Of a stretch of DNA of 64,000 bases, positions 24,376-61,128 are shown piece by piece. The position numbers and the translations under genes were made by a program. This stretch comes from Calditrichota bacterium (GTDB taxonomy: Bacteria > Calditrichota > Calditrichia > RBG-13-44-9 > J042), in assembly GCA_013150955.1 (NCBI GenBank), contig JAADJD010000020.1, positions 62,001 to 126,000 of the forward strand, written 5' to 3'. Each line of letters opens with the position of its first letter. Position 1 is the stretch's first letter. The notes beneath the pieces are model-generated. The model worked only from the letters and a program-made list of their open reading frames with translations. It was not told the origin of the DNA and did no database searches.

Positions 24376-24810
24376 TTGAAAACGGATTATTTAAAAACGG
24401 AAGAAATTCTGAACAGCCGGAAATGGTACGTGGTCGATGCAAAGGGGAAGGTGCTGGGACGCCTGGCTTCCGAGGTGGCTAAGATTTTACGTGGCAAGCA
24501 TAAACCCACGTTTGCGCCTCATCAGGATGTGGGAGATTTTGTGATCGTGATTAATGCAGACAAAGTAAAGTTGACCGGAAAGAAGCTGGATCAGAAAATC
24601 TATTTTCGGCATTCGGGTTATCCCGGAGGTGGGAAGTATTACACGGCCCGGATGATGTTAAGTCGGCGGCCGGAGTATGTGATTGAGCATGCCGTGCGAC
24701 TCATGTTGCCCAAGAATGCGCTGGGCCGGAAGATGTTCAAAAAATTGAAGGTTTATGTCGGGGATCAGCATCCCCATCAGGCACAGAAACCGGAACCCTT
24801 AAACATTTAA
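24376..24810 (+). CDS. rplM: 50S ribosomal protein L13
   Basis: A 144-residue protein of the large subunit, full length for the family. It shows '[19 protein letters not shown]', '[20 protein letters not shown]', 'HSGYPGG' and '[18 protein letters not shown]'. The start is TTG at 24,376, decided by AAGGAGG ending 9 nt upstream. It is followed after 16 nt by rpsI, the usual L13-S9 pair. Confidence 0.97.
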
Positions 24811-24826
24811 TTGACGAGGTAGGGAT

Positions 24827-25213
24827 ATGGAGCATTACGATGCCGTCGGTCGACGAAAAACTGCGGTAGCCCGTGTACGGCTGGTTCCCGGGAAGGGGGA
24901 AATCATCGTCAATGGACGTCCCCTGCTGGAATATTTCAAGCGGGAAACGTTGAAAATGATCATTGAACAGCCATTTGAGATTACCAATACCAAGGGCAAG
25001 TTTGATGTTTATGCCAATATTACGGGTGGTGGTTTAAGCGGGCAGGCTGGTGCCCTGCGGCTGGGCATCTCGCGTGCACTGTTGCAGTGGAATCCCGAAT
25101 TGCGGCCCGAATTGCGAGCCGCTGGCTTCCTGACCCGCGATCCCCGCGAAGTGGAACGCAAAAAATACGGACAACCCAAAGCCCGAAAACGGTTCCAGTT
25201 TTCCAAACGTTAA
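24827..25213 (+). CDS. rpsI: 30S ribosomal protein S9
   Basis: A 128-residue small-subunit protein, beginning '[19 protein letters not shown]' and ending with the conserved basic tail '[17 protein letters not shown]' that reaches the P-site tRNA. It has GAGGTAGGG before the ATG and directly follows rplM. Confidence 0.97.
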
Positions 25214-25242
25214 TTTATGGTTCTATCAATTTAAATCACACA

Positions 25243-25308
25243 CACTATTGGATCTTCCAGGGGGGTGTTCAGCCGCTGGCTGAATCCCTGGGAGAGATGA
25301 CAATAGTG
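25243..25308 (+). promoter_or_regulatory. Structured RNA leader upstream of rpsB (candidate S2 autoregulatory element)
   Basis: A 66-nt sequence folds into one long interrupted hairpin. The basal helix CACTATTG/CAATAGTG (25,243-25,250 with 25,301-25,308) is perfect. A second helix pairs TTCCAGGG (25,255-25,262) with CCCTGGGA (25,286-25,293), with one G-U pair. The apical stem TTCAGCC/GGCTGAA (25,268-25,274 with 25,278-25,284) has a three-base loop. It ends 30 nt before the rpsB start and has no U-run, so it is not an intrinsic terminator. Other bacteria control rpsB-tsf through S2-binding leaders; a similar role here is inference. Confidence 0.65.
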
Positions 25309-25338
25309 GAGGCTTAACCCAAAGCAAAAGGAGTGTTT

Positions 25339-26073
25339 ATGTTACAGGTAACCCTCGAAGATCTGCTGCGTGCCGGTGTGCACTTCGGTCATCTGACCCG
25401 CCGTTGGAATCCCAAGATGCGCGATTACATTTTCATGGAACGCAATGGGGTTCACATCATCGATCTGAAAAAGACCCTCAAGCTGTTGAATCGCGCTTAC
25501 GATGCCATGAAAGAAATTGCTGCCACCGGAGAACCCATCCTGTTTGTGGGTACTAAAAATCAAATCAAAGAAATCGTTCAGTCCGAAGCGATTCGATGTG
25601 GGATGCCTTACGTGGTTGAACGCTGGTTGGGTGGGACGCTGACCAATTTTGCCACCATCAAGAAGAGCATCCGCCACCTGGAGAATCTGGAAAAAATGGT
25701 AATGGATGGGACGGTGGAAAATTTGACCAAGAAGGAACGCCTGCAAATTGAACGGGAAATTGCCAAAATGAAGAAAGTGTTTGCAGGCATCCAGGATATG
25801 AAACGCCTGCCGGGTGCGGTTTACATTGTGGATACGCGCAAGGAAGAGATTGCCGTCAAGGAGGCGCGGAAGCTGGGGATCCCGATTTTCGCGATTGTGG
25901 ACACCAACTCGGATCCCGAGGAAATCGATTATCCCATTCCAGGGAATGATGACTCAACCAAATCGGTGGGACTGATTACCCGCATCATGGCGGATGCGGT
26001 GCTGGAAGGGCGACGGCAGATTGAAGAAGAGCAGGCCGAAGCCGAAGAAATGAAAGCGAAAGAAGAAGCGTAA
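25339..26073 (+). CDS. rpsB: 30S ribosomal protein S2
   Basis: A 244-residue small-subunit protein with 'LLRAGVHFGHLTRRWNPKM', 'ILFVGTKNQ', 'YVVERWLGGTLTNFATI' and 'GIPIFAIVDTNSDPEEIDYP'. The ATG at 25,339 is preferred over an in-frame GTG two codons earlier because AAAAGGAG is well placed for it. The C-terminus is a Glu/Ala/Lys-rich helix. It heads rpsB-tsf-pyrH-frr, a classic order, and follows a structured leader. Confidence 0.97.
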   Translation: MLQVTLEDLLRAGVHFGHLTRRWNPKMRDYIFMERNGVHIIDLKKTLKLLNRAYDAMKEIAATGEPILFVGTKNQIKEIVQSEAIRCGMPYVVERWLGGTLTNFATIKKSIRHLENLEKMVMDGTVENLTKKERLQIEREIAKMKKVFAGIQDMKRLPGAVYIVDTRKEEIAVKEARKLGIPIFAIVDTNSDPEEIDYPIPGNDDSTKSVGLITRIMADAVLEGRRQIEEEQAEAEEMKAKEEA

Positions 26074-26102
26074 ACGTAAAGAGAGGAGAGGGGTAGACAA
26101 AG

Positions 26103-27423
<1,321 letters not shown>

Positions 27424-27425
27424 AC

Positions 27426-27986
27426 ATGACCGTAAAAGAAATTTTTAAGGATGCAGATGAGCGGATGAGGAAATCCGTGGAACATGTCCAGCACGAGCTG
27501 GCCCGGATTCGTACGGGTCGCGCTACACCGGCCTTGCTGGATGTTGTAAAAGTGGAATATTACGGCAGCAAGGTTCCGCTCAATCAGGTGGCCACCATTA
27601 CCGCCCCCGAACCCCGTTTACTGGTCATTCAACCCTGGGAAAAGCGCATCATCGGGGACATTGAAAAAGCCATCCTGGAATCGGAACTGGGGTTAACCCC
27701 TTCGAATGATGGCAATGTCATCCGCATTCCCATTCCCGAATTGAGCGAGGAGCGGCGGCAGGAACTGATCAAGCTGGTGAAAAAATTCTGCGAAGAGGGT
27801 CGCATTGCCGTTCGAAATGTGCGGCGAGACGCCAATGATCACATCAAAAAGCTGGAAAAGAATCACGAAATCTCTGAGGATGAGCGAGACCGCGCTCTGG
27901 AAAAAATTCAGGAATTGACCGATAAACACATTAAGGAAATTGATCAGCTGCTGGAAATGAAGGAAAAGGAAATTCTCGAGGAATAA
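27426..27986 (+). CDS. frr: Ribosome recycling factor
   Basis: Splits post-termination ribosomes together with EF-G. A 186-residue, fully helical three-helix bundle plus alpha/beta domain, with '[16 protein letters not shown]', '[20 protein letters not shown]' and '[20 protein letters not shown]'. Its ATG is 2 nt after the pyrH stop, so it is translationally coupled. It ends the translation cluster; no intrinsic terminator is visible in the 190 bp that follow. Confidence 0.97.
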
Positions 27987-28182
27987 ATCTGCCCCTCCTT
28001 TTGCCAATGATCCCATTGTGTTCCAATCTTCGACGCCGGGAACACCGCGAAAGTTTTCAAACGAATCCGTAAGGTTACGGTGAAAGCGATTCGCAATGAC
28101 ATGATTCCTGAGCCGCGACAACCCAATACGCAGGAGGACCGATTGAAAGGAGCGTTACCAACGCGATAAAATTGAGTTGTCC

Positions 28183-31100
28183 GTGAAATACGCTAAAAAC
28201 ATGGTTCGTGCCGCTTGCCTGGTGGTCGCTCTTTTCATAACGGGCCTGGCTCAGGAAGCGCCTCCACGAATCTACCTTGATTTTCCCGCCGATACGCTGG
28301 TCATCCCAATCCAGACATTAACCGATTCCCTGAAATTGCCCCACGCCTTTGTGGTGGAGCGTTCCGAACGCCTCTATTTCGGCCGATTCAAATTGATCCG
28401 TGGCATCCATTATCGCATGGATTACCGCCGGGGAATGGTGTTTTTTATCCAGCGATTGAGTGGGAAACCGGACGATTCGTTACGGGTGATTTATCGTTAC
28501 CCACCATTTCCACTTATTCCCCTGTACTATCATCAGAAATTGCAGAAGTTGTCTGCCCGCGATACCACCGACACCCTTCTGGTGGCCACCCGAAAAGCCG
28601 GTACCGGTGGTTTGCTGGATGATCTGGAGTATTATCAAACGAATCTGAAAAAAAGTGGCAGCATTGTTCGTGGCATTCAGATTGGCAGTAATCAGGATCT
28701 GACGCTGAATTCCGGGATGAATCTGCAGCTGTCCGGCTACATTACGCCCAGGGTGCAGATTGTGGCGGCTTTGACGGATGAAAGTACCCCCATTCAACCG
28801 GAGGGCAATACGCAGACCCTTCGGGAAGTGGACAAGGTGTTTGTTAAAATTATCAGTCCCATTGCCGAGGGCACGCTGGGAGATTTTAATCTGTCCGTCC
28901 AGGACGCCCGTTACGGCAATGTGCAACGCAAGCTTCAGGGGCTCACGGTGGCTTCGGGCATGCTGGGCAGTCGGGTTGAATTCACCTACGGTACCTCGCG
29001 GGGGACTTTTCACACCAATCAATTTCTGGGGCAGGAGGGCAAACAGGGGCCTTATCAGCTTACCGGAAAGAACGGGGAGAGGGAAATTATTGTGCTGGCG
29101 GGGACGGAGCGGGTTTATGTGGATGGCGAATTGCAAACCCGTGGGGAAAACAACGATTACATCATCGATTACAGTCTGGCGCAAATTACTTTCACCAATA
29201 AACGATTGATCACCTCTGAAAATCGGATCGAGGTGGATTTTGAGTACAGCCTGGCGTTTCAGCGGTACGGGAAAAATTTCATCGGATTGTCCGCCCGTTC
29301 GAGAAAGGAAACCGATCGGTTTCGTTACGATGTGCGATTGTTTCGAGAATGGGACGACACCCGCAATTTGCTGGAGGACAGTGCGCCGCTTACGGATGAG
29401 GAGCGCCGCATCTTGCAACGGGCCGGGGACGATCCGCTGAAGGCGGCCACCTCCGGTGCGGAATATGTGGGACCTGGCAATGGGCTTTATGTAAAGGTGG
29501 ATACGGTGTTTGCCGGTCAGCCGATGACCATTTTTAAATACGTGGGGCCCGGCCGCGGCGATTACCGGGTAAAGTTTAGTGGAGTGGGACCCGGAAAGGG
29601 GGATTACCGGCGGGTGCGACTGGGAGTGTACGCCTTTGTGGGGCCCGGACGGGGAGAGTATCTACCAATTCGGCGAATTCCCCTGGCGGCCGATCAGCGG
29701 CTGGTGGATGTCACGCTGGGATTTCGTCCCATTACCGCGCTGGAGATACAGGGAGAGCTGGCCGTCAGTCAGCTGGATCGCAATGTGTTTTCTCCGCTGG
29801 ACGACCAGGACAATCTGGGCGATGCCTTCCGGCTTCAGTTGAATTTACAACAGACGCCCATCCGGCTGGGCAACCTGTCGCTGGGACAGCTGGCGGTGCA
29901 GGGATTCTGGCGTAAACGCAGTCAGAGTTTTCTGGAGCTGGATCGGCCGTTTCAGCCGCAGTACGATTACAAGTGGAATTTTTTACAGCCGGAGGTGTCG
30001 CTGGTGGAAAATGTGTACGAGACGCAACTGCAGTATCGGCCATTCGGGCCACTCCGGTTACAGGCGGAGCTGGGGCAGAATCGCAAAGGGGCCCGGTTGT
30101 TTTCTACCCGCAGAAACCTCCTGGCGGATGTCCAATCCGGCAACACCACACTGGCATTAACCAACCGCGAAATCATTCAGACCCGCGATGGCGATTTAAG
30201 CAGTTTGTGGATTCGGGATCGCATTCAGCTGAGCCTTCCCTGGAAGCGATTCCGGCCAGGGTATGTTTTTAAGGGAGAAGATCGTAGTGTGCGGAATGAC
30301 ACCGGAAAGCAGACCGGCTTTCGGGTGCAGGATCACCAGTTTTTGCTCCAGTTGCAGGCGTTGCTGGGAATGGACTGGAAACTGCGGCACCAGCGCCGAC
30401 TGGATTTTATTTATAATCCCCGCCGTTCGGGCGAAGCGCTGAAACAGGCGGAAACACGCACCTACGAAGTATCTGCCACCCTGAAAGAAAGCAAACGCTG
30501 GCAGGGGCGCCTGTCCCTGGTATACCGGGAAAAAGATTACGATCGCTTTTTTGAGACCCTGCCCCGTGATAGCATCCTGATTTATCAGCCCGATGCACGT
30601 TTCCAGGACACCACCTGGCAGGATCGGCAAAGTCATCTGGCCAATCTGGAATTGCGCTATCGATCGGCAAAAAACACGTTTACCGCTTCCTGGGATTATC
30701 AGATTTCCAGCGAGTTGCAGGCGCTGCGGGAAAAGGTGTACATCCGGGTAGGGGAAAACCGGGGCAATTATCGCTACGACGAGAGCCTTGGCGAATATGT
30801 CCCCGATCCCCAGGGCGATTACCTGCTGCTCATTCTGCCCAGCGGGAAGTACGAAAGCATCACCCGAATGGAAAGCGCCTGGCAGATCACCTATCGTCCC
30901 CGCCCGAAACGCAGCTCGAAAAAAAACCTGCGCTGGCTCTTGCAGCAAATTTCCACCCGTACTTATGTGCGCATCGAAGAGCAAAGCCGGAATCCAAATA
31001 TCTGGGATATTTACCTGCTGAATCTTAAAAAATTCTACACGCCGGAAACCACGCTTCGGGGAAGTTACGTGATCAATCAGGACATCTTTTTGTTCGAGCG

Positions 31101-31725
31101 AAATCCCAACTGGGGCATCCAGCTCCGAAGTCGCTATCGGGATCAGTTGTTCAATCAATTCCTGGATCGTCAGAACAACGAAAGCCGCATCGTGTGGGAT
31201 CGGATTTTTCAGGTACGGCGGCGGCTGTTCCAGCGGAAAATCAACCTGATTACCACCTACCAGAACAGTTTGAATCGGCGCAAAGTGAGTGCATTGCCCA
31301 CCCGTGATCGCGACGTTTTAAAGCAGGCCCTGAAGTTTACCCTGAATTACCGGCCGGTCTATGCCTGGCAACTGAATCTGGATGTGGAACGCGGGTGGGA
31401 GCAGGATCGGCATCCGGCCAACCGAATGAAGGTAAGGTACTGGGAACTGCGGCCCAATGTGGCCTATTCCATGAAAGGGAAAGCCCGTGCCAGTGCCGAT
31501 TTGAACGTCATCTGGGTTCGAGAAGTGGACAATCCGTTTGGTCGTCCCATTCCATTCGAGATGGGGAAGGGAAAAAAAGCCGGGCGTTCCTGGTTGTTAA
31601 ACCTGCGCCTGGATTATTATTTAAGTTCCAAGGTCACCGTTACGGTGAACTACACCGGGCGGCGGGATGCAGGCCTGACGCGCCCCATTCACCTGGGGAA
31701 AGCCGAAATCCGGGCGTTTTTTTAA
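28183..31725 (+). CDS. Large outer-membrane beta-rich protein of unnamed family
   Basis: About 1,180 residues, with a signal peptide (to ~'ITGLAQ'). I cannot name a family. The N-terminal ~100 residues form a beta domain. Residues ~165-395 hold a conserved-looking block ('GSIVRGIQIGSNQDLTLNSG', 'IQPEGNTQTLREVDKVFVKI', 'IIVLAGTERVYVDGELQTRG', 'NDYIIDYSLAQITFTNKRLI') that I recall from similar large proteins in Bacteroidetes and relatives. Residues ~430-495 carry four GPGxGxY repeats. The remaining ~650 residues alternate polar and aromatic residues like barrel strands, and the chain ends in FF. The start is uncertain (TTG 28,177, GTG 28,183 or ATG 28,201); no well-spaced ribosome site decides it. 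An Omp85 gene follows 15 nt after its stop, suggesting a joint role. Confidence 0.7.
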   Translation: MKYAKNMVRAACLVVALFITGLAQEAPPRIYLDFPADTLVIPIQTLTDSLKLPHAFVVERSERLYFGRFKLIRGIHYRMDYRRGMVFFIQRLSGKPDDSLRVIYRYPPFPLIPLYYHQKLQKLSARDTTDTLLVATRKAGTGGLLDDLEYYQTNLKKSGSIVRGIQIGSNQDLTLNSGMNLQLSGYITPRVQIVAALTDESTPIQPEGNTQTLREVDKVFVKIISPIAEGTLGDFNLSVQDARYGNVQRKLQGLTVASGMLGSRVEFTYGTSRGTFHTNQFLGQEGKQGPYQLTGKNGEREIIVLAGTERVYVDGELQTRGENNDYIIDYSLAQITFTNKRLITSENRIEVDFEYSLAFQRYGKNFIGLSARSRKETDRFRYDVRLFREWDDTRNLLEDSAPLTDEERRILQRAGDDPLKAATSGAEYVGPGNGLYVKVDTVFAGQPMTIFKYVGPGRGDYRVKFSGVGPGKGDYRRVRLGVYAFVGPGRGEYLPIRRIPLAADQRLVDVTLGFRPITALEIQGELAVSQLDRNVFSPLDDQDNLGDAFRLQLNLQQTPIRLGNLSLGQLAVQGFWRKRSQSFLELDRPFQPQYDYKWNFLQPEVSLVENVYETQLQYRPFGPLRLQAELGQNRKGARLFSTRRNLLADVQSGNTTLALTNREIIQTRDGDLSSLWIRDRIQLSLPWKRFRPGYVFKGEDRSVRNDTGKQTGFRVQDHQFLLQLQALLGMDWKLRHQRRLDFIYNPRRSGEALKQAETRTYEVSATLKESKRWQGRLSLVYREKDYDRFFETLPRDSILIYQPDARFQDTTWQDRQSHLANLELRYRSAKNTFTASWDYQISSELQALREKVYIRVGENRGNYRYDESLGEYVPDPQGDYLLLILPSGKYESITRMESAWQITYRPRPKRSSKKNLRWLLQQISTRTYVRIEEQSRNPNIWDIYLLNLKKFYTPETTLRGSYVINQDIFLFERNPNWGIQLRSRYRDQLFNQFLDRQNNESRIVWDRIFQVRRRLFQRKINLITTYQNSLNRRKVSALPTRDRDVLKQALKFTLNYRPVYAWQLNLDVERGWEQDRHPANRMKVRYWELRPNVAYSMKGKARASADLNVIWVREVDNPFGRPIPFEMGKGKKAGRSWLLNLRLDYYLSSKVTVTVNYTGRRDAGLTRPIHLGKAEIRAFF
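29464..29661 (+). repeat. Degenerate in-gene repeats encoding GPGxGxY
   Basis: Four copies of a short motif lie within the large outer-membrane gene: YVGPGNGLY, YVGPGRGDY, GVGPGKGDY and FVGPGRGEY. The nucleotide units (GTGGGACCTGGCAAT, GTGGGGCCCGGCCGC, GTGGGACCCGGAAAG, GTGGGGCCCGGACGG) are clearly related. Looser echoes (RVGENRGNY, PDPQGDY) occur near residue ~855. Confidence 0.8.
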
Positions 31726-31740
31726 GGAGAGCTGTGGGCG

Positions 31741-33615
31741 ATGATTCTGGTGCGAGCAAAAGACATTCAGCAACGGCAGTGGGTTGCTCATTGGACGGAC
31801 AGGACATGGGGGATGCTGCCCATCTGGTGGCTGCCCGTGGTGTTCTGGTTGGCGGAGTTGCTGCTGGGATGGGGCCCGGCTGTACAGGCGCAAACGGCGG
31901 CTTCACCGGTGTGGGTGATTCAGGACATTCAGGTGAATTTCGAGCCAGAAGTCCCCATTGACACCAAATCGCTGAATCGTCAATTCAGGGGACGGGTTTA
32001 CCACCCCACCGCGCTCAACGAAATCCGCGAAGGCCTGCACCAGCTCCTGATCGACGAGGGGTACTATTTTTACCGGATCCTGCAGCGGCGCATCCAGGCC
32101 GATTCCACCCGAAAAACGGTCGTTGTAAACTATCGCGTTCACCCCGGCTATCCGGTGCGATTAACGGAAGTCACCTTTCAGATGGCCGATACCAGCGCGG
32201 AAACCCGTTCCCGGCTGCATTCCCGAATTGCACCTTTCCTGAAAAAGCCCTACCAGTCCCGCCAGGCGAATGAGTTGTTCGCCGTGCTTTTGCAGGATTT
32301 CGAAAATCGGGGCTTCCCGTTAGCCCAGCTGGAGCTGGAAGATTATCGGTTAACCCGATTGCCGGATAGCAGCTGGGGGATTGGCCTGAAGGTCCGTGTT
32401 GTTCCGGGCGACACGGTGCGACTGGCCGGATTATGGTTTCCGGGAAAGGATGAGCGATACACCCACTATTTGCAGCGTCTGGTGAATTTTCGAGAGCGGG
32501 AGCTTTATGACCGGCGGCGCATCCGGCGGTATCGGGAACGGTTACAGCGCCAGGACTTTATTAAGCGCGTGGGCGAGCCGCAACTGGTCAAACACCCAGA
32601 CGGCAGGTATTACATAAAAATGGATCTGGAAGAAGCACCTGCCACCACGCTGGATGGGGTGGTGGGCTATGTTCCGCCGCCAACGGCCAAACCTCAGGAA
32701 ACCGGGTACTTTACGGGCCTGCTGAACATCGGATTTCGGAATTTGTTCGGTCCCGGACGCCGGTTAAAACTGTTCTGGCAAAAGCAGGATCGGTATTCGG
32801 AAGCGTTCCAGCTCCGCTATCGGGAGCCGTTTATTCTGGGACTCCCCCTGCACACCGAATGGGGATTGTACCGCCTGGTGCGGGACACGACTTATATTGA
32901 CTGGCAATATCAGGCAACGCTGGAATTTCCTCTGGGAGACCGCATTCAGGCTTTTGTGAATCTGTTGAATCGGGAAATTGCGCCGGATACGCTGGCCAGC
33001 CGACGGCTGCGTTTGCCCCGAACGCGCAGTTTTTACACCGAAACCGGCCTGGCGTACGACTCGCGCGATCATCTGCAAAATCCCCGCTCGGGAATTTACT
33101 TGCGAATGGCGTTTTCCTACGGTACCAAACGCAACCTGGGCCCAGCTTATCTGCTGAAGGAAGATTCTCTGAAGACCCGCACCTCCATTCAACAGGTACA
33201 GGCGGATCTGGAATGGTACTGGGAATGGCTCAAGCGACAGGTGCTGGCCAATCGGCTGCATTTTGCGTTTATTGGCGGCAAAAATGCGCAGATCCAGTTG
33301 CCAGATCTGTTCTGGTTTGGTGGGGCCAATTCGGTTCGCGGATTTCGCGAAGATCAGTTCTTTGCGGAAAAGGTTGTCTGGCTAAATACCGAATATCGAT
33401 TCTTGCTGGGCCCCTTCACGCGATTTTTTATATTTGTGGACAACGCCTATTTTACCCGCCGGATACCGGATGCATCCACCCGCTGGATAACCGGCTATGG
33501 TCTGGGCATTCGGTTTCCCGGACCGGTGGGCATCCTGCAGGTGGATCTGGGCATGGAGCGGGGAAGGCCGTTTCGCGAGGGCAAGATCCACGTGCGGCTG
33601 ATTAATGAATTTTGA
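31741..33615 (+). CDS. Omp85-family outer-membrane protein (BamA/TamA-like)
   Basis: A 624-residue protein with an unusually long N-terminal signal region (~50 residues, ending near 'AVQAQ'), two to three POTRA-like periplasmic repeats (~55-290), and a 16-strand beta barrel (~300-624). 'GGANSVRGFRED' near residue 530 is the conserved VRGF loop-6 motif of Omp85 proteins, and the chain ends in phenylalanine. The family inserts or transports proteins (or lipids) at the outer membrane. It is smaller than typical BamA (~800 residues). Because it directly follows the unnamed 1,180-residue outer-membrane protein, it may be dedicated to that protein rather than being the general BamA. Confidence 0.87.
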   Translation: MILVRAKDIQQRQWVAHWTDRTWGMLPIWWLPVVFWLAELLLGWGPAVQAQTAASPVWVIQDIQVNFEPEVPIDTKSLNRQFRGRVYHPTALNEIREGLHQLLIDEGYYFYRILQRRIQADSTRKTVVVNYRVHPGYPVRLTEVTFQMADTSAETRSRLHSRIAPFLKKPYQSRQANELFAVLLQDFENRGFPLAQLELEDYRLTRLPDSSWGIGLKVRVVPGDTVRLAGLWFPGKDERYTHYLQRLVNFRERELYDRRRIRRYRERLQRQDFIKRVGEPQLVKHPDGRYYIKMDLEEAPATTLDGVVGYVPPPTAKPQETGYFTGLLNIGFRNLFGPGRRLKLFWQKQDRYSEAFQLRYREPFILGLPLHTEWGLYRLVRDTTYIDWQYQATLEFPLGDRIQAFVNLLNREIAPDTLASRRLRLPRTRSFYTETGLAYDSRDHLQNPRSGIYLRMAFSYGTKRNLGPAYLLKEDSLKTRTSIQQVQADLEWYWEWLKRQVLANRLHFAFIGGKNAQIQLPDLFWFGGANSVRGFREDQFFAEKVVWLNTEYRFLLGPFTRFFIFVDNAYFTRRIPDASTRWITGYGLGIRFPGPVGILQVDLGMERGRPFREGKIHVRLINEF

Positions 33616-37646: not shown

Positions 37647-40600
37647 ATGAAAAAATCCTGGTTTCAAATCATTCTTGCGGCCTGCCTGATGTTTGCAGGG
37701 CAGGGCTGGACTGCCGATCGGCCCCCCAATGCGGAAATCATCGTTAAATTTCGATCGGTATCGGCGTTGCCCACCACGGCCACAGCCACTGGACGGCTGG
37801 TGCAACTGGACGCCATTCAACAGCTGGAGCGGGAATTTTCCCCCCTTCAACGAATGCAGCGCTTTCGGCAGTGGCCACAGATAAAGTCGCTAAATAATAA
37901 TGTGTGGGAATCCGTGGAGCTGTGGCGACTTGCGGACTCCGTTCAGGTGCGAAACATTTTGGAGAAACTGCGGGCATTGCCTGAGGTGGAATATGCGGAG
38001 GTGAATCACGTCTTTAAAATTCGCCAGCATCCGGTCAATGATCCCGATCTGGATCGGCAGTGGTATTTAAACCGTATTGGAGCGTTACTGGCCTGGGAGC
38101 TTCCTGGGGCCACCGAAGAGGTCATTGTGGGAGTGATTGATACCGGAGTGGATTATTTGCATGAAGACCTCCGGGAGCACATCTGGGTGAATGTGGCCGA
38201 GGATTTGAACCGGAATGGCCGGCTGGATTCACTGGATTTAAACGGGGTGGATGATGATGGCAATGGCTACGTGGACGATGTGATTGGCTGGGACTTTACC
38301 CATGCCCCTTTGTTTGCCGATTACGGCGATTATCTGGATCCGGACAATGATCCCATGGACGAATTTTACAGCGGGCATGGCACCTCCGTGGCCAGCCTGA
38401 TTGCCGCCGTGCCTGACAATGGTGTGGGCATTGCAGGAGTCGCCCCGGTTGCACGAATTATGATCCTGCGCGCGGGAACCGCTTCCGGGTATTTACAGGA
38501 GGACGATGTGGCCGAGGCCATTCTGTATGCCATTGACAACGGATGCCGGATCGTCAATCTGAGTTTTGGGGATGTGGCCTACTCCTATTTGTTGCGGGAT
38601 GTCATTCGTTACGGTTCGCGCAGGGGCGTGCTGTTTGTTGCTGCTGCCGGCAATAGCGGAAATGCCGTGCCTCAGTTTCCCGCTGCGTTCGATGAGACCA
38701 TTTCGGTGGGGGCCACCGATGTGGACAATGCGCGGGCCAGTTTTTCGTCCTATGGCACCAAACTGGATCTGGTTGCGCCGGGTCAGGGGCTATGGGCCTG
38801 CCAGATCGGGAATCGCTACGGTTCGGTCAGCGGAACCTCTTTTGCTGCACCGCTGGTAAGCGGAGCACTGGCGTTGCTCTGGTCCCATTTTCCGGACGCT
38901 TCGGCTGAAGATTTGAAGAATATGCTATTTGCTGGTTGCCGGGATCTGGAAGTTGCTGGATGGGATCGACACACCGGTCATGGATTATTGAACATTTACC
39001 ATTCCCTGCAGATGGGTGCCGGCGGATGGGCCGAAATTCGTTACCCAGGCAGTTACGATGGGGTGTTCCAGGATACGGTGGCCATTGTGGGAACGGCAGC
39101 CGGTCCGGAATTCCTGGGGTACCGGGTGGCGTTTGGCGTGGGCACCGATCCCGATCAATGGTATTCGCTTCGAGAAGTTGAAGGCGAGCAGATCGTTAAC
39201 GACACGCTGGCCATGTGGGGAACCACGGGCCTGGCCGATTCGGTTTACACGCTGGAGCTTCGGGTTCAGCAGTACGGGCTGCCGGATCGGGTTTTTCGCA
39301 CGCAGGTTTATCTGGATCGGTCACCCCCGCGCATTTTGCAGGTGAATGTTTTACCCATGTTGATCAAAACCGGGGGAGGCTATCTGGTGGAACTGACCAC
39401 CGATGATCCCACCACCGCGGTGTTGCACCTGCAAAGCGATCCATTGTCGGAGCCGTTTCCCATTAAAAGTCCCTACCGGCAGACCCGTCATTATTTTCTG
39501 CTGGAAAGTCACCATTTAACCGATGGGTCCCGCTTCTGGCTGGAGGTCGTGAATCCGGCGGGACTGGTTACCCGATCGCTGTCCGATCAGGACGCGTATC
39601 CCGTACCGCGATTGGAAATGCCACCGATGCAGAATCGTTTTCAACTGGAAGCCCAGTACCCGGTTGAAGGCTATCTGATGCCGTTCTGGGTGGATTTTGA
39701 TCGCGATGGACAGAAAGAGGTGGTAATCAGTCGCCTGGACGAGCAGCGCAATTTTGGTCCACTGGAGATCTTCGAATTTGACCGGCAGAATTTGCTACCG
39801 GTGGAGGCAATCGACTTTCCGGCCATTCCACGAGATGCGGGCAATGTGGGTGCCGATAGTCTTCTGGAATTAATTGCCGGGTATGGTAAAATCTCCTTTG
39901 CCTTTCAGGGAACGGCAGATCAGGCCTTTCCCAATCACCTGGTCTGGGTGGATACGGCCAATTTTTGGGCCAGCCGCCTGGCCGATCTTGATGGCGATGC
40001 ACAACCGGAGCTGCTGGCCATTCAAAAAGGACAGTGGGGAGTGTACCGGTTTCAGGATGCCGGTTTTGAGCCGATCTGGCAGCAATGGCTGGAGAATCCC
40101 AGCAGCGGTGATAATCAGTATGGCATTCCCTGGATCCTGCCCATTGATCTGGATGCCGACAGCCTTCCAGAACTTGTTTTTGGCGACTACGACGGCGATG
40201 TGGTCATTCAAAAGCGGGCGGCTGATGGGGACTTTCATCCCTGGAAATGGACGCGCCTCACCGGTGCGGATGCCACTTATCTCCTGCAGGATGGCGATGT
40301 GAATGGGGATGGCGTTCCGGAGCTGGTGGTCATCACCAGTGTGCAGCCGGGTCAACTCACCGAATCCAACCGGGTGGCGACCTACTGGGTGGTGCATTTA
40401 CTGACAGTACCTGTCCAGGGGGAAGTGGAAATCAGCTATTCGCTGGCCATTCATGGGGTGCAAAAATCACGCGGGCAGTTTCAGGGTCTGGCGGTGGCCG
40501 ATGTGGATGGGGACGATCAGGAAGAAATATTATTTGCTGCCTTTCCTCGATTGTTTGTGCTGGGCTGGCAGGATTCCGGCCTGGTGCTGGAATGGTATCG

Positions 40601-41864
40601 GGAACGGATCAATACCAATGCCATCCTGGTTGCTGACGTGGATGGGGATAGCAAGACGGAAATGTTGTTGAACGCGGATGGCGGCCTGAACCTTTTTGAA
40701 TATCAGAGCGGCATGGTGCGGCCTCTGCCTCCGGGAGGGGTTCAGGCCACCCCTCTGGATACCCGGCATGTTCTGGTGCAATGGCGAGCCGTCCCCGAAG
40801 CCCGATTTTACCTGTTATATCGTTCAATGCAACCGGATTCGCTGATCTTGCTGGACACCGTCCGGGCAACGGTTTATCTGGACAGCACGGTTCAATCCGG
40901 GCATACTTATTATTACCGAATTTCTGCGGTTAATCCCGCCTATCCGATTCCGGAAAGCGCACCCAGCCCGATTGTTTCGGCAACTCCCAATCCGCCCCCA
41001 CGCGTGGTTGATGTGCGGGTGCTGTCCGCTCGCCAGCTGGAATTAACCTTCAGTGAACCCATGTCCGAGAACGCTTTCCAGGTACAGCCCTACCGGGAAT
41101 GGCCACAGGGATTGCAGCCCATCAGCGTGGTGCGGGGAAAGCAGGGAACGGTTGGCATCCTGAGTTTTGAGGATCCCCTGATGGCCGGTGAACACCGACT
41201 GGCCCTGGTCAATTTACAGGATGCCAGTGGTACCCCACTTTCTCTGGATACCACCTGGGTTTCCTTCACCATCCCGGCAACCAGCGATCCATTTTATGTG
41301 CTGCGGGTTACCCTGCAGAACAAAACCCGTCTGGAGGTGGAATTCAACCATCCCGTGGAGCCGGTTAGCGCCACCGATGTGTCCAATTATCGGTTGGTGC
41401 CGGATGGGGTTATCGAGAAGGCTGTTGTGGATACCGCCAATCACCATCGGGTGTGGTTGTTGCTGGACAGGCAAAATCGCATGGGAGCGCTGGGGGTCAC
41501 CTATCACCTGAGCATCCAGGGAGTTCGGGATATTTATGGGAATGCCCTGGCTTCGGAAACACAGGAATTTCTGATTATACAATCCGTACAGGATCTGGAT
41601 GAAATTTTTGTGTATCCCAATCCCTACCGCATGTCTGCGGCAGAAAATGAATTAATGTTTGGAAAAGTCCCCCGGGGCTGCGAAATTTTTATTTACAGTG
41701 CCACGGGAGATTTTGTGAATCGCCTGGTGGAAACAGACGGGGATGGTGGAGTGGCCTGGAATCTGCGAAATGCGAATGGGGAATTGGTTGGCAGCGGCGT
41801 CTATTTGTTCATTGCAAAGTATAAAAAGCAGGTACGATCTGGTAAGTTTTTATTGATAAGGTAG
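37647..41864 (+). CDS. Secreted subtilisin-like (S8) protease with FG-GAP-like repeats and type IX-like sorting domain
   Basis: A 1,405-residue exported protein. A signal peptide (~1-22) and a propeptide-like region (~25-130) precede the S8 catalytic domain with Asp165 (VIDTGVDYLHEDL), His244 (GHGTSVASLI), Asn336 (AAAGNSGN) and Ser398 (GTSFAAPLVSG). Then come beta domains, and six DxDxDGxxE-type repeats (~680-1,015, e.g. DLDGDAQPELLAIQ, DVNGDGVPELVVI) that probably bind calcium in an FG-GAP/VCBS-like propeller. A fibronectin type III domain and two Ig-like domains follow. The last ~85 residues ('VYPNPYRMS' ... 'GELVGSGVYLFIAKYK') resemble FlgD-Ig/type IX sorting domains. It follows the TPR gene by 71 nt and precedes the CoaE-like gene by 10 nt. 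Confidence 0.9.
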   Translation: MKKSWFQIILAACLMFAGQGWTADRPPNAEIIVKFRSVSALPTTATATGRLVQLDAIQQLEREFSPLQRMQRFRQWPQIKSLNNNVWESVELWRLADSVQVRNILEKLRALPEVEYAEVNHVFKIRQHPVNDPDLDRQWYLNRIGALLAWELPGATEEVIVGVIDTGVDYLHEDLREHIWVNVAEDLNRNGRLDSLDLNGVDDDGNGYVDDVIGWDFTHAPLFADYGDYLDPDNDPMDEFYSGHGTSVASLIAAVPDNGVGIAGVAPVARIMILRAGTASGYLQEDDVAEAILYAIDNGCRIVNLSFGDVAYSYLLRDVIRYGSRRGVLFVAAAGNSGNAVPQFPAAFDETISVGATDVDNARASFSSYGTKLDLVAPGQGLWACQIGNRYGSVSGTSFAAPLVSGALALLWSHFPDASAEDLKNMLFAGCRDLEVAGWDRHTGHGLLNIYHSLQMGAGGWAEIRYPGSYDGVFQDTVAIVGTAAGPEFLGYRVAFGVGTDPDQWYSLREVEGEQIVNDTLAMWGTTGLADSVYTLELRVQQYGLPDRVFRTQVYLDRSPPRILQVNVLPMLIKTGGGYLVELTTDDPTTAVLHLQSDPLSEPFPIKSPYRQTRHYFLLESHHLTDGSRFWLEVVNPAGLVTRSLSDQDAYPVPRLEMPPMQNRFQLEAQYPVEGYLMPFWVDFDRDGQKEVVISRLDEQRNFGPLEIFEFDRQNLLPVEAIDFPAIPRDAGNVGADSLLELIAGYGKISFAFQGTADQAFPNHLVWVDTANFWASRLADLDGDAQPELLAIQKGQWGVYRFQDAGFEPIWQQWLENPSSGDNQYGIPWILPIDLDADSLPELVFGDYDGDVVIQKRAADGDFHPWKWTRLTGADATYLLQDGDVNGDGVPELVVITSVQPGQLTESNRVATYWVVHLLTVPVQGEVEISYSLAIHGVQKSRGQFQGLAVADVDGDDQEEILFAAFPRLFVLGWQDSGLVLEWYRERINTNAILVADVDGDSKTEMLLNADGGLNLFEYQSGMVRPLPPGGVQATPLDTRHVLVQWRAVPEARFYLLYRSMQPDSLILLDTVRATVYLDSTVQSGHTYYYRISAVNPAYPIPESAPSPIVSATPNPPPRVVDVRVLSARQLELTFSEPMSENAFQVQPYREWPQGLQPISVVRGKQGTVGILSFEDPLMAGEHRLALVNLQDASGTPLSLDTTWVSFTIPATSDPFYVLRVTLQNKTRLEVEFNHPVEPVSATDVSNYRLVPDGVIEKAVVDTANHHRVWLLLDRQNRMGALGVTYHLSIQGVRDIYGNALASETQEFLIIQSVQDLDEIFVYPNPYRMSAAENELMFGKVPRGCEIFIYSATGDFVNRLVETDGDGGVAWNLRNANGELVGSGVYLFIAKYKKQVRSGKFLLIR

Positions 41865-55259: not shown

Positions 55260-58200
55260 ATGACACGGAAAATTCATTACATTTTTCTTATCGCATTCCT
55301 GATAATCGGGTTGGGAATTGCTCTGTTTGTGGTTCTCTATCGATTCACCCCGGTGGTGGATACGGCCCTGATGCGAGTATTGAATGCGGCGACCGGTCCC
55401 GAAATTCAGATACGCTATGCCAATATTTCCGGAAACCTGATCGGTGAAGTTCGGCTGGATGGTCTGGAGATCGAAGCCCCACAGGGACGCCTGGTGGCCG
55501 AAAAGACAATCCTGAAGTACCGCCTGCTCGACCTGGTCAATCAGCGATATGTTTTTGATCGCATCGTTTTATTCCGGCCGGTGGCAACGATACGGGTCGC
55601 CACCGATACGTCCCGGGGGGCACCGTCTGAGGAAGAAACCAACGCATTGCCCGTGCCTCGGCCGCTGGACCTTTCGGGAGTCCCGGTAATTCAGGTGCGC
55701 CAGCTGGTGGTGACCGATGGGCGCGTTTTCGTGCTGAAGGGTCAGGACACTGTTCAGGTCATCACCGATATTCAGATAGAATTGAAAGGGGAGCTGAACG
55801 AAGAGCGGGTGGAATTGCGCCCCCGCTATATTCGGGGGTTCTGGAAAAACCACAATCTGCGACTCCAGCAACTAAAATTTCAACTGATTGGGAATCGGAA
55901 ACGAATTACGGTGAATCAACTGGAGGCCAGTCTGGGCGATTCCCGCCTGATTGGTCATGGAGAGGTGGAATTTGTTCCCGAATTAAAATTTTACCTCTTC
56001 ACCGATACCAGCACCATCAACCTGACCACCCTGCATGCGATTTTCCCATCATTGCCCTACAAAACCGGATACATCCGGTTGTACGGTTCGTTTATTGGAA
56101 ACTTTCAGGAATATTCTGGAGAAGTATTTCTGGAATCGCTACTGGACAGTTTGCGGATAGATCGGCTCAGTCTTCGCTATAAAAAAAAAGCCCGCCGTTA
56201 TGAAATTGAAGAAATTCTTTTCCGCTCCAACTTTGGCAATGCAAAAGGGAGAGGGAGTTTATCCCCGGCGGATTGGAATCAATTCAACCTGGCATTTAGC
56301 AACTGGAACCTGCAGCGTCTGGCGCTTGCCGATATAGAGACCCACCTCAGTGGTCATCTACAGGTTCGCTTTAAAGACTGGGATCTGAACCGGATGGAGG
56401 GACGGGCGCATCTGCATCTATTTCCTGCCCGTCTGGATGCTGCGCGGCTGGATTCCGTTTATCTGGATGTAAGCTGGAAGCGCGGTCGTTTTTTTTTACG
56501 TGAAGGTTCCCGCATCGTGGTGGGGCCATCCAGTCGGTTTGATATATCGGGAAGGATATCCCCGCAAAGGGATCTGGATATCCGGGTGAAGAGCCTCCGC
56601 AATCAGCTGGACACGCTGGCCACCCATTTGCCGTTGCCCCCGGTCCGCGGTCAGGGGCAGCTGGAGTTCCACATCACCGGCAAGCTCGATAATCCCAACA
56701 TTGACGGGCGGATTTTTCTGGATAGTGTGCAGTATCAGAATATCCGATTGAAGGGCGTTCAGGCGAACATCCAGGTGCTGAATGTGGCCACGCAACGGCT
56801 GGGGATATTTTCTCTGGACATTGCCTCCGGTGAACTGGGAACGGTACCGGTGACGGACGGTCGCTTGCGATTTCGGATTCAGCGGAACGTGGTTTTTCTG
56901 GATTCCATTCAGTTTGTTAGCCGACAGAACCGGGTATTCACGCAGGGGCGGCTGGCATATGCCCGCCAGCGCTGGTGGCTGACCCTATTCCAATTTCAAT
57001 TTCGGTACCAGGATTACCGTCTGCGCAATCGTCAGCCTCTGCGGTTGATCTGGGGAGAAGATTCACTGAAGATCGCCCATCTGGCCCTGTTTACCCGAGA
57101 TGGGGGACAACTGCAGGCCAGGGGAGTGATTACCGGTAACGGCGCGTCGAATGTGGAATTGGAGATCCACAAAATTCGTCTGGCCGCTCTGCACCCGTTT
57201 TTGAAAACCGATTATGCCCTGGATGGGCAGCTTCAGGGTAAGGCGCGTTTACGGGGAACGATTGATCATCCGGAGATTGCCCTGGAGGTGGACGTAAACG
57301 ATTTTTCCGTGGATGGCCGCATATTGGGTAATCTCCTGGCTCGAGCGGTGTTGCAACAGAATCGCCTGGAAATGAAGCGGCTGGATTTTCGGCAGCGGGA
57401 AGGTGGACAGGTGACTTTTCATGGAATGGTGCAGCTGCCGTCCGAGAAATTGTCCCTTGCATCTCTGTTGAATCCCCGCAACACTTTCGAAAGTCGTCTG
57501 CAGTTTGAGAATTTCCAGTTAAAAGATGCCGCCTTTTTTCTGAAAACCAATGTTCCCGTGCAGGGGCAGATAAACGGTCAATTGGAGTTGACCCACACGA
57601 TTGGCGCACCCCGGGGAAATTACAATTTCCAGCTCCAGCGGCTTCAGTACGGAGAGTATCAATTCCCCTATGTGGAACTGGATGGACGCATCCAGCCGCA
57701 TCGGATTTTACTGGATTTTGCGCGGGTGAATTTTCTGAATACCGAATTGCGCTTAAATGGCTGGAAGGCCATTCAGTGGAATCCCGAACATCCGGAGCAA
57801 ATCTTTGCCAATCGGGCATTTGGATTGTTGTGCCGTATTCAGGAGGACAGCCTGAATTTCCTGGGAGTGGTTGAACCCGAGGTGGATCGCATTGTGGGCG
57901 ATATTAACATATTTTTAAAATTGGGGGGATTGATCGATCGGCCACGCCTCCTGGAAGCGGAGGCCAGCATCAAGGACGGGCAGATTTATCTGAACAAGGT
58001 CGCCAATCCCATTACCGATGTGCAGTTCCAGGCCCACCTGGAAGATCAGTTCCTGATAATCGATCAGTTTGAAGGTGCTGCCTCCCGCACGGCTTACGAA
58101 CGCGGCTTCTGGGATCGGGTCTGGCGTTTTGTGACCCGCCCCCTCCAGTTTCTGGGGCTGGTGGAGGAAGAAACCGGCCGCATTGAAGGGAAAGGGCAGA

Positions 58201-59285
58201 TTGATCTTTCAGACATTTTTCGTCCCGGCTACGACCTGCGGCTAAAGGCCCACCAGGCGTATGTCAATTATTTCATCGAAAATGTGCATCTGGTATTCAG
58301 TACCGACAACTTGCGGATTACCGGTCGGGACACCATCTGGGTGAGGGGCGATATTTTTATCGATGAAGGGGATGTGGAACTGGACATTGCCGAAACCGAG
58401 AAAAATCTCCTGCTTTCTCCCACGGTGCGGGAAATTCCACCGTTTGTGGCCTACGATCTGGACGTGAGCATTCCGGGAAATTTCTTCATCATCAGCAATG
58501 CCCCGTTCAATACCTTTAATCTGGAAATCAGTGGGGATCTTCGGGTTATTCAGGAGCCCCGTGCCCCGCTGGAAATGAACGGTTACCTGGAAATTTTAAA
58601 AGGCAAATATTTTGTTCAGATCGAGGAATTTAAAATTCAGGAAGGGCGAATCAATTTTGTGAATCCCAAGGAACTTCCTGAATTGCACATCGTGGCTCAA
58701 AAGCGGAAATACGATTTGATCTTTGTGCTCACGGTCAGGGGACGACTGAATAATCCCGTAAAAGAGATTACCATTTACGATGCGCGGGATCCATCCCAGC
58801 CGTTGCCGTATCCGGATGTGAAAGATCAGATGGCGCTATTGATGTTCGGGGTGCCGTTTTCCGAATTGCAATCGCAGATTGGCACCAAACTGCTGGAGAA
58901 AGGTGAAGAGATTATTACCCAGACGTTGATCTCGCAAATCGAGAAAGAGGCGCGACATTTTATCGGGCTGGATCAAATCCGGATTGAGACTGCTCCCAGT
59001 CGCACCCTGCTGGAAGACGCCCGGTTAAATCCCGAACCGGCAACCCTGGCACTGGGGAAATACCTGACCCCCAAATTGTATTTTGAGTACAAATCCCGAT
59101 TGGCTTCCACCCGGATTCCCGGATTGATGAACATTCCCACACCGCAGTTGCGCTGGGAAGCCGGGAATCAAATCTACCTGGAATACCGAATTGGACGCAA
59201 CTGGTCGATTTCTTCTTTTTACGAAAAAACGATTGAGGGCAATGCACGCATTAAATTCGACATCAGCTGGCAGATTAACTTTTAA
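55260..59285 (+). CDS. tamB: TamB-family translocation and assembly module protein
   Basis: A 1,341-residue periplasm-spanning protein anchored by an N-terminal membrane helix (~6-28, 'IFLIAFLIIGLGIALFVVLY'). The body is a very long beta-taco built from AsmA-like repeats ('IRYANISGNLIGEVRLDGLE', 'LEFHITGKLDNPNIDGRIFL', 'KARLRGTIDHPEIALEVDVN', 'GRLNNPVKEITIYDARDPSQ'). The C-terminal ~350 residues match the TamB (DUF490) domain. TamB proteins are thought to move phospholipids between membranes and, with TamA, to help insert outer-membrane proteins. Its last 44 nt overlap the following Omp85 gene in another frame, the standard tamB-tamA partnership, although here tamB comes first. Confidence 0.92.
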   Translation: MTRKIHYIFLIAFLIIGLGIALFVVLYRFTPVVDTALMRVLNAATGPEIQIRYANISGNLIGEVRLDGLEIEAPQGRLVAEKTILKYRLLDLVNQRYVFDRIVLFRPVATIRVATDTSRGAPSEEETNALPVPRPLDLSGVPVIQVRQLVVTDGRVFVLKGQDTVQVITDIQIELKGELNEERVELRPRYIRGFWKNHNLRLQQLKFQLIGNRKRITVNQLEASLGDSRLIGHGEVEFVPELKFYLFTDTSTINLTTLHAIFPSLPYKTGYIRLYGSFIGNFQEYSGEVFLESLLDSLRIDRLSLRYKKKARRYEIEEILFRSNFGNAKGRGSLSPADWNQFNLAFSNWNLQRLALADIETHLSGHLQVRFKDWDLNRMEGRAHLHLFPARLDAARLDSVYLDVSWKRGRFFLREGSRIVVGPSSRFDISGRISPQRDLDIRVKSLRNQLDTLATHLPLPPVRGQGQLEFHITGKLDNPNIDGRIFLDSVQYQNIRLKGVQANIQVLNVATQRLGIFSLDIASGELGTVPVTDGRLRFRIQRNVVFLDSIQFVSRQNRVFTQGRLAYARQRWWLTLFQFQFRYQDYRLRNRQPLRLIWGEDSLKIAHLALFTRDGGQLQARGVITGNGASNVELEIHKIRLAALHPFLKTDYALDGQLQGKARLRGTIDHPEIALEVDVNDFSVDGRILGNLLARAVLQQNRLEMKRLDFRQREGGQVTFHGMVQLPSEKLSLASLLNPRNTFESRLQFENFQLKDAAFFLKTNVPVQGQINGQLELTHTIGAPRGNYNFQLQRLQYGEYQFPYVELDGRIQPHRILLDFARVNFLNTELRLNGWKAIQWNPEHPEQIFANRAFGLLCRIQEDSLNFLGVVEPEVDRIVGDINIFLKLGGLIDRPRLLEAEASIKDGQIYLNKVANPITDVQFQAHLEDQFLIIDQFEGAASRTAYERGFWDRVWRFVTRPLQFLGLVEEETGRIEGKGQIDLSDIFRPGYDLRLKAHQAYVNYFIENVHLVFSTDNLRITGRDTIWVRGDIFIDEGDVELDIAETEKNLLLSPTVREIPPFVAYDLDVSIPGNFFIISNAPFNTFNLEISGDLRVIQEPRAPLEMNGYLEILKGKYFVQIEEFKIQEGRINFVNPKELPELHIVAQKRKYDLIFVLTVRGRLNNPVKEITIYDARDPSQPLPYPDVKDQMALLMFGVPFSELQSQIGTKLLEKGEEIITQTLISQIEKEARHFIGLDQIRIETAPSRTLLEDARLNPEPATLALGKYLTPKLYFEYKSRLASTRIPGLMNIPTPQLRWEAGNQIYLEYRIGRNWSISSFYEKTIEGNARIKFDISWQINF

Positions 59286-61128
59286 ATCCGGCATATTCCT
59301 GGGATTGCTGAGTCTGGCACTGTTTCCCTTTTGGGGTTGGGGACAGCAGCTGAAGGTGGAGCGGATCCTGTTTGAAGGTCGTCAGGCATTCAGCGAAGGC
59401 CAGTTGAAGGACATCATCAAATCCCGGGAGGGGAAGCCGTTCAATGCCAAGCTGATGAAACTGGATCAAATTCTGCTGATGAATTATTACCAGTTGCATG
59501 GGTATCTGGACGTCTATGTTTCTGCCGATTTCAAACGGGATGGTGATCGCATTCACATTCGGTACAGCATTCGGGAAGGGCCGCAGTACTTTCTCAATCG
59601 CATTGTGTTTCAGGGCAATCAGCTGGCCAGCGACCGTTTTTTGCGCCGATTTTTTGACATCAAGCCGGGGGATCCTTATCAACCGACGCAGATCGAGAGC
59701 GGCATCAACGCCATTGAAGGCTATTACCTGGACAACGGGAAATTGTACGTTCAAATTCAAACGGAACGTCATGTGGTGCAGGATTCCCTGATTGATCTGA
59801 TCGTTCGTATTGATGAGGGCGAAACGGTTTACATTCGGGACATTCAGTATTACGGCCTGCGCTGGGTAAAAGCGTTCATCATTCGCCGGGAACTGGAGAT
59901 TAAAAAAGGCGATCGCTATTCTCGAAAAAAGCTCAATCTTTCCCAGCGAAATATTTATGGGACCGGTTTGTTCAAGTCGGTCAATTTCAAGCTGGAACCC
60001 ATCGGAGATTCCCGTTCGGAGGTGCGGTTGAAAATTTTTGTGGTAGAAAAACAGCCGCGATGGTTGGGCATTCGCTTTGGTGTGACCTATGAAGAGGAAA
60101 AGGAATTTGGACGGGCCACCAGCACATTCGATATCACCGCCCAGGCCGGCCATCGCAATCTGTTTGGTACCGCTCGAAGCCTTTCGTTGAGCCTGATACC
60201 GTCCTTTCTGTACGACGTTTCCCGCGGAAAAATGCAGAATCCCAAGAATCAGATCAGCCTGACCTTTGTGGAACCCTGGATCGGGTACACCCGCACACCG
60301 GGAATATTTCAATTTTCTTACAGCGAATTCCGGAAACCCATTTATCCCGCCGATCTCAAGATCTGGACGGCCTCGTTCAATGTGCGGCACGAGTTTACCA
60401 ACGACTGGACGGTGGAGGGAATGGTCTCCGCCAAACGGGTTAACACCCGACTGGACACCCTGTTGCAAAAACTGACGCAGGGGCAGGATCTCATCTATGC
60501 TCTTTCGTTCCAGGCCATTCGCGATCGTCGGGATAATTATATGGCGCCCCAGGACGGTTCCCTGCTGGAGTTCCGGAGCAAGTTTATTCATTCGACCATT
60601 CTCAATCTGGAGACCCGGAAGCGTTCCACCAATCGGTTTGTGAAGTTGAGTGCCCAGTGGAACCGTTACCAGCGGGTACCCCGGAATCCCGGCTGGGTGC
60701 TGGCTTCCCGCATCCGCCTGGGTGCCATCATGGAATTCAATCCCGCCACGACCGTGCCGTTTGTGGAGCGATTTTTTCTGGGCGGTGCCTCCTCCGTGCG
60801 CGGTTATGCAGAGCAGTTGTTAGGTCCAGTCCTTTACGACGACCGGGGACATCCCGTGCCACTGGGCGGAAAAGCCCTCTTCCTTTCCAATCTGGAGCTA
60901 CGGGTGCCTCTGATCTGGTTGCTGTATGGGGAGGTATTTCTGGATGGAGGGTACGTATGGTCAGAACTGAGGCAGGTGCGCTGGCTGGATATCAAGTGGA
61001 GTACGGGAATGGGAATTGCCCTGATTACCCCGGTGGGTCCGGTACGCCTGGATTACGGATACAAATTGATGCCCCGTCCCGGTGAGAAGCGCTACGAAAT
61101 CCACCTGGGTATTTCATTTGCATTTTAA
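59242..61128 (+). CDS. Omp85-family outer-membrane protein (TamA/BamA-like), tamB partner
   Basis: A 628-residue protein. The ATG at 59,242 has GAGGG just upstream and opens a signal peptide that ends near 'GWGQQ'. Four POTRA-like repeats follow (~35-280: 'VERILFEGRQAFSEGQLKDI', 'LNRIVFQGNQLASDRFLRRF', 'VYIRDIQYYGLRWVKAFIIR' and so on). The 16-strand barrel runs from ~290 to the C-terminus, with the loop-6 motif 'GGASSVRGYAEQ' at ~513-524, and ends in AF. With tamB it forms a likely TAM-type module. Its stop codon lies within the first bases of a partial dispersed repeat. Confidence 0.92.
   Translation: MHALNSTSAGRLTFKSGIFLGLLSLALFPFWGWGQQLKVERILFEGRQAFSEGQLKDIIKSREGKPFNAKLMKLDQILLMNYYQLHGYLDVYVSADFKRDGDRIHIRYSIREGPQYFLNRIVFQGNQLASDRFLRRFFDIKPGDPYQPTQIESGINAIEGYYLDNGKLYVQIQTERHVVQDSLIDLIVRIDEGETVYIRDIQYYGLRWVKAFIIRRELEIKKGDRYSRKKLNLSQRNIYGTGLFKSVNFKLEPIGDSRSEVRLKIFVVEKQPRWLGIRFGVTYEEEKEFGRATSTFDITAQAGHRNLFGTARSLSLSLIPSFLYDVSRGKMQNPKNQISLTFVEPWIGYTRTPGIFQFSYSEFRKPIYPADLKIWTASFNVRHEFTNDWTVEGMVSAKRVNTRLDTLLQKLTQGQDLIYALSFQAIRDRRDNYMAPQDGSLLEFRSKFIHSTILNLETRKRSTNRFVKLSAQWNRYQRVPRNPGWVLASRIRLGAIMEFNPATTVPFVERFFLGGASSVRGYAEQLLGPVLYDDRGHPVPLGGKALFLSNLELRVPLIWLLYGEVFLDGGYVWSELRQVRWLDIKWSTGMGIALITPVGPVRLDYGYKLMPRPGEKRYEIHLGISFAF

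Follow-up and report, generated by a model that had tools for sequence, protein, structure and literature searches.

The DNA analysed here, referred to as the window, is a stretch of 64,000 nucleotides from a Calditrichota genome (G000; 4.07 Mb, 99.7% complete). It harbors a gene for a predicted giant outer-membrane protein, named Q in the following, and directly downstream a gene for an Omp85 protein. Both genes and their features are given below in window coordinates, together with a TamB/Omp85 pair located further downstream.

28177–31725, + strand: Q, predicted giant outer-membrane barrel protein of 1,182 aa (ORF; family alignment A1; AlphaFold model).
28177–28251, + strand: putative signal peptide of Q, residues 1–25, ending in ...TGLAQ before E (helix 4–24 in the model; hydrophobic N-terminus in aligned members).
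28264–28512, + strand: N-terminal beta-domain of Q, residues 30–112, in front of a low-confidence linker, residues 113–152 (model; weak profile similarity).
28645–29028, + strand: first eight barrel strands of Q, residues 157–284, a highly conserved block (alignment; model).
29089–29346, + strand: beta-domain common to Q and SprA, residues 305–390, GTERVYVDGELQTRGENNDYIIDY... (hhalign; TIGR04189 match).
29467–29667, + strand: four VGPGxGxY-type repeats of Q, residues 431–497, in the insert that separates strands 11 and 12 (sequence; model).
29692–31722, + strand: C-terminal barrel of Q, residues 506–1182, about 29 strands, with the end IRAFF (model).
31741–33615, + strand: partner Omp85 of 624 aa, POTRA domains and Omp85 barrel (PF01103 and POTRA matches; alignment A3; co-occurrence).
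33334–33345, + strand: VRGF motif of the Omp85 barrel, R533 and G534 conserved (alignment A3).
55260–61128: TamB/Omp85 pair with overlapping ORFs (TamB E 3.5e-37).

An earlier note on this DNA had described a large secreted protein followed by an Omp85 protein, and this arrangement is real: the Omp85 ORF starts 15 nt past the stop codon of Q and is preceded by AAGGAG. The note had counted 1,180 residues from position 28183, where an in-frame GTG is indeed found, but the ORF already opens at the TTG at 28177 (1,182 aa); an in-frame ATG follows at 28201, and none of these three start codons has a well-spaced ribosome site. The signal peptide which had been noticed corresponds to a signal-peptide-like helix at the N-terminus of the model (LVVALFITGLAQ, followed by E). 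The N-terminal block that had looked conserved does contain most of the invariant columns of the 50-member alignment A1 (residues 161–540), and the protein is beta-rich in two models with the end ...IRAFF. The N-terminal beta-domain is probably periplasmic and the insert with the VGPGxGxY repeats probably extracellular. These repeats are partly kept as VGxGxGDY across the family and possibly bind a ligand or a metal at the cell surface. Upstream of Q lies a run of genes, rplM-rpsI-rpsB-tsf-pyrH-frr (window 24376–28177, gap 190 nt; names from the ORF translations). The order of this run and Q recurs at two further loci (L014 and L034), and other Calditrichota have different neighbours of Q. Further downstream (window 37647–41864) a 1,405-aa subtilase with FG-GAP repeats is encoded, whose C-terminus weakly resembles the sorting domains of the type IX secretion system (T9SS; TIGR04183, E 0.006, below cut-off); this subtilase is a possible T9SS cargo.

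No Pfam or NCBIfam family scores above its cut-off for the Q of the window or for any of 28 members tested from four phyla. Q is thus unnamed in these databases, as the earlier note had stated, and does not fall into a known, functionally defined family. The SprA/Sov model TIGR04189 matches residues 307–373 only, with 32.3 bits (E 1.5e-8) against a cut-off of 200 bits, and with 1,182 aa Q is also shorter than SprA/Sov proteins, which have about 2,000–2,500 aa and large extracellular inserts. When Q is aligned with the SprA of the same genome, residues 305–390 match SprA 611–693 with an hhalign E-value of 3.4e-8, and the C-terminal residues 1048–1100 match SprA 2036–2085 in a profile–profile comparison (E 2e-5), a match that may be generic to barrels. 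In addition, residues 179–280 weakly match SprA 198–290, and residues 49–112 have weak profile similarity to the same SprA region that is matched by residues 305–390. The first three of these matches are collinear in order, which is a suggestion of homology over the whole length. Overall the likeness in sequence is weak. The only strong match covers a small beta-domain with a resemblance to phage-tail proteins as well; in some Q members residues 305–390 match phage-tail families. Q is not a truncated SprA, because a full SprA of 2,086 aa is present elsewhere in the genome and Q is intact and found in every Calditrichota genome. TamB, a TonB receptor and a passenger protein were ruled out as identities of Q by the lack of a family match, and a direct sequence search of the PDB with Q or its profile gave no match. 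In the literature on SprA paralogs and homologs we found no description of Q. The profile comparison with SprA and TamB proposed in the earlier note yields a weak sequence match for SprA and no match for TamB; SprA is moreover the best structural match. Q is also distinct from the tamB/Omp85 pair at 55,260, as had been claimed; the latter is a true pair, whereas the gene beside the Omp85 discussed here, Q, is not a TamB (PF04357).

AlphaFold models were obtained for the Q of the window with 50 family members (pLDDT 82, pTM 0.68) and for a member from Flavobacterium jejuense with 68 sequences (pLDDT 84, pTM 0.71). From the N- to the C-terminus both models run through the same elements, starting with a small beta-domain and a disordered linker. 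Eleven strands come next, then an insert that contains a helix and short strands, and finally about 29 further strands up to the C-terminus. Each model has about 40 strands of barrel length in all, and among solved structures the predicted barrel of Q is most like SprA, the 36-strand T9SS translocon (PMC10994853). In the Foldseek comparison with the PDB four SprA chains lead the list for each model (best E 1.7e-12 and 8.2e-11), at low TM-scores of 0.23–0.30, and Foldseek may prefer SprA as the largest barrel in the PDB.

The downstream gene product has the hallmarks of the Omp85 superfamily, namely POTRA domains (E 1e-11), a PF01103 barrel (E 7e-20), and the VRGF motif. These are shared with BamA, TamA, and TamL, but the scores of the partner Omp85 are far below the respective equivalog cut-offs (BamA, TIGR03303, 82.7 of 297 bits; TamA 41 of 625; TamL 33 of 400). 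In a tree the BamA-like and TamA-like Omp85 proteins of the same genome are split from the partner family with a support of 88/88, and one very long-branched Omp85 of this genome could not be placed. A separate gene elsewhere in the genome, coding for an Omp85 of 781 aa, is likely the BamA.

A profile of the partner was built from alignment A3, which comprises ten sequences of Calditrichota and Neomarinimicrobiota and none of Bacteroidota. At E ≤ 1e-30 this profile found the partner in 143 of the 174 Bacteroidota genomes with Q and in 0 of the 123 without Q; a high-scoring partner is also present in 33 of 40 Calditrichota genomes. This co-occurrence indicates that Q and the Omp85 form a functional pair, though their genes are often far apart. 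Among the 33 Calditrichota genomes that have both, the Omp85 gene follows directly 3′ of Q in 11; in a twelfth case (G028) the start of the Omp85 lies after Q on the same short contig, and in another genome (G026) adjacency is compatible with a contig break. Both genes adjoin in two Neomarinimicrobiota as well. The partner is located elsewhere in the genome in the Calditrichota families f4 and f5, it is not next to Q in the Ignavibacteria and most of the Bacteroidota loci examined, and in four Bacteroidota genomes it shares the strand with Q at a distance of about 6 kb. The pairing seen in the earlier note stands in terms of co-occurrence, but physical pairing is not general, and separation of the genes in most relatives, which that note had named as a refutation, is indeed observed. 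Other neighbours were recorded at these loci. In four flavobacterial loci (L211–L214) the partner adjoins a SusC/SusD pair, and in Ignavibacteria-like loci (L215–L217) it belongs to a run of genes with a GWxTD-domain protein, a pfkB kinase, and RNase HII. One to several tandem genes of MacB/FtsX-type permeases are found directly upstream of Q in Ignavibacteria-like loci L026–L037. In Flavobacterium, Q has an aspartate kinase gene on its upstream side and genes for type-B T9SS substrates on its downstream side. These neighbours and the permeases were set aside as local synteny, because they are conserved only inside their groups.

The most frequent direct neighbour of Q encodes a secreted NHL-repeat protein, about 300 aa in length and with a match to six-bladed propellers; this gene is present in 36 of 40 Calditrichota. 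It lies at most 400 bp upstream of Q in 23 Calditrichota genomes and within 3 kb in four more, and upstream of Q in two Neomarinimicrobiota; in four Bacteroidota genomes it overlaps the beginning of Q. In the genome studied here the propeller gene is found 38 kb downstream of Q, outside the window (G000:C29:131744). This secreted beta-propeller is likely the third part of the module, and since the order NHL-Q-Omp85 occurs in both Calditrichota and Neomarinimicrobiota, the gene order suggests an ancestral operon.

A scan of genome contigs gave 80 Q loci in Calditrichota, Ignavibacteria, Neomarinimicrobiota, and Bacteroidota. The full-length copies read at these loci encode proteins of 1,040–1,191 aa, and the family as a whole has mostly about 1,040–1,200 aa, with a few longer frames in Bacteroidota. 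Three loci (L018, L080, and L090) come from public records labelled as Deltaproteobacteria or Bifidobacterium breve with Calditrichota- or Flavobacterium-type gene surroundings; these records are probably mislabelled bins. Most Bacteroidota are set apart in the Q tree from Ignavibacteria, Calditrichota, and Neomarinimicrobiota, and some long branches are unsure; by and large the gene tree agrees with the phyla, as expected under vertical inheritance. According to profile searches all 40 Calditrichota genomes contain Q, which we take as single copy in this phylum because extra matches are mostly contig-end fragments or weak cross-matches of SprA, and all 40 have SprA matches (38 above cut-off). 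Among 297 Bacteroidota genomes 172 have Q and SprA, 2 only Q, 55 only SprA, and 68 neither, in counts that ignore phylogeny and leave out six weak Q hits, which are likely SprA cross-matches, as well as one weak SprA hit which is Q itself. Q is hence found in 172 of 227 genomes with SprA and in 2 of 70 without, and both exceptions (G051 and G333) carry GldM. In a further genome, G047, the only SprA match is weak and short. Q accompanies the T9SS but the T9SS does not require Q, because SprA occurs without Q in 55 of the 297 genomes. The genomes with neither protein may largely be one host-associated lineage, and for this reason the correlation of Q and SprA is not built of independent events.

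This system consists of conserved parts which are found together and, in distant lineages, linked in operons; the module of Q and Omp85 is well supported. We infer a role of Q in secretion or assembly. We give about an even chance to the following proposal: Q is an accessory giant outer-membrane channel of T9SS-bearing FCB bacteria with its own Omp85, and the module is ancient. We also infer its mechanism and cargo. The Omp85, together with BAM, would insert and close the giant barrel of Q, or would stay bound to it; the propeller might dock on the periplasmic N-terminal domain, and the VGPGxGxY insert could form an outer cap. As an accessory SprA-like channel Q would pass folded or large cargo across the outer membrane, and this cargo might be some of the T9SS substrates, proteins of the cell surface, or a surface polymer associated with them. 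A further reading, which we regard as distinctly improbable, takes Q as the channel of a second translocon in the outer membrane that the GldKLMN motor drives or is coupled to, with the dedicated Omp85 and the propeller as adaptor; in some lineages this translocon would be able to work without SprA.

Alternatively, Q might be a giant channel for lipids, glycans, or nutrients, with the T9SS link reflecting lineage or lifestyle and the Omp85 acting only as assembly factor. The structural comparison of Q also gave matches to LptD and SusC barrels, the partner lies beside SusC/SusD in the four flavobacterial loci, and the correlation of Q with SprA is confounded by lineage. On the other hand, SprA is the best match of both models, no genome with Q in the Bacteroidota sample lacks a T9SS gene (SprA or GldM), and at the loci surveyed genes for transport, lipids, or glycans showed no linkage to Q that holds across lineages. 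We consider this explanation unlikely, although it is the most serious competitor.

It is very unlikely that Q constitutes a second full T9SS translocon which uses the same motor and is able to replace SprA. The similar strand number, the common domain, and the collinear weak matches would fit this idea, and so would G333, a single contig of 3.34 Mb that carries Q and the partner Omp85 along with a gldKLMN-like cluster (L136, L164, and L222; in the cluster only GldM was identified by profile, the other genes by their order and N-termini) and in which SprA was found neither by either profile nor by tblastn over the 1.2 Mb re-read. However, G333 is a single genome whose SprA may be missed in a search of this extent, nearly all other genomes with Q have kept SprA, and Q has half the length of SprA. 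Even less probable is that the co-occurrence of Q and Omp85 is an artefact of lineage with no joint function. The counts were taken without phylogenetic correction, and 31 Bacteroidota genomes with Q lack a partner match at E 1e-30, which may partly be a threshold effect because the matching flavobacterial partners score only 110–118 bits. Nevertheless, a partner is never found without Q in that sample, and the same Omp85 adjoins Q in two phyla and is close to it in a third. The least probable of all is that the Omp85 exports Q as passenger by two-partner secretion, for although the genes adjoin in part of the Calditrichota and the partner weakly resembles ShlB (19.5 vs. 22.7 bits) and POTRA_2 (15 vs. 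24), both matches are below cut-off, the Omp85 is usually unlinked to Q, and the prediction for Q is a membrane barrel ending in F rather than a beta-helix.

If Q is an accessory channel as we propose, T9SS-bearing bacteria own a second giant pore besides SprA. In any case, an outer-membrane protein of near 1,200 residues with a dedicated Omp85 exists in at least four phyla without a Pfam or NCBIfam name. The closest known systems are SprA and Sov (TIGR04189; PDB 6h3i and 8gl8), the latter being the largest barrel identified in bacteria (PMC12421860). They share with Q the very large single-chain outer-membrane barrel, which in case of Q is predicted, are found in nearly all genomes carrying Q, and are linked to it by the structural match, the common beta-domain, and the weak collinear matches. 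In contrast, Q comprises about 1,150 aa instead of 2,100–2,400 aa, is encoded by a separate gene beside a true SprA in the genome, and has its own Omp85 and propeller. Very large single-chain barrels are also described in Deinococcus, namely SlpA with 30 strands and predicted barrels of 38 strands; unlike Q, SlpA connects outer membrane and cell wall and has a coiled coil and an SLH domain, and the parts of that report available to us describe no linked Omp85 (PMC9388160). For the flavobacterial partner a candidate counterpart is Fjoh_0402 of F. johnsoniae, a non-lipidated "TamA homolog" whose deletion left growth unimpaired and for which no connection with a giant barrel was reported (PMC12045153). 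Like the Omp85 proteins of L211–L214 it is expected beside a SusC/SusD pair, given the numbering of SusC Fjoh_0403 and SusD Fjoh_0404 (PMC12611786), and like them it is a non-lipidated Omp85 without adjoining TamB gene; this putative assignment is based on synteny. If it is true and Q is a channel, a specific client may exist for the TamA-like Omp85 that has been deleted in F. johnsoniae.
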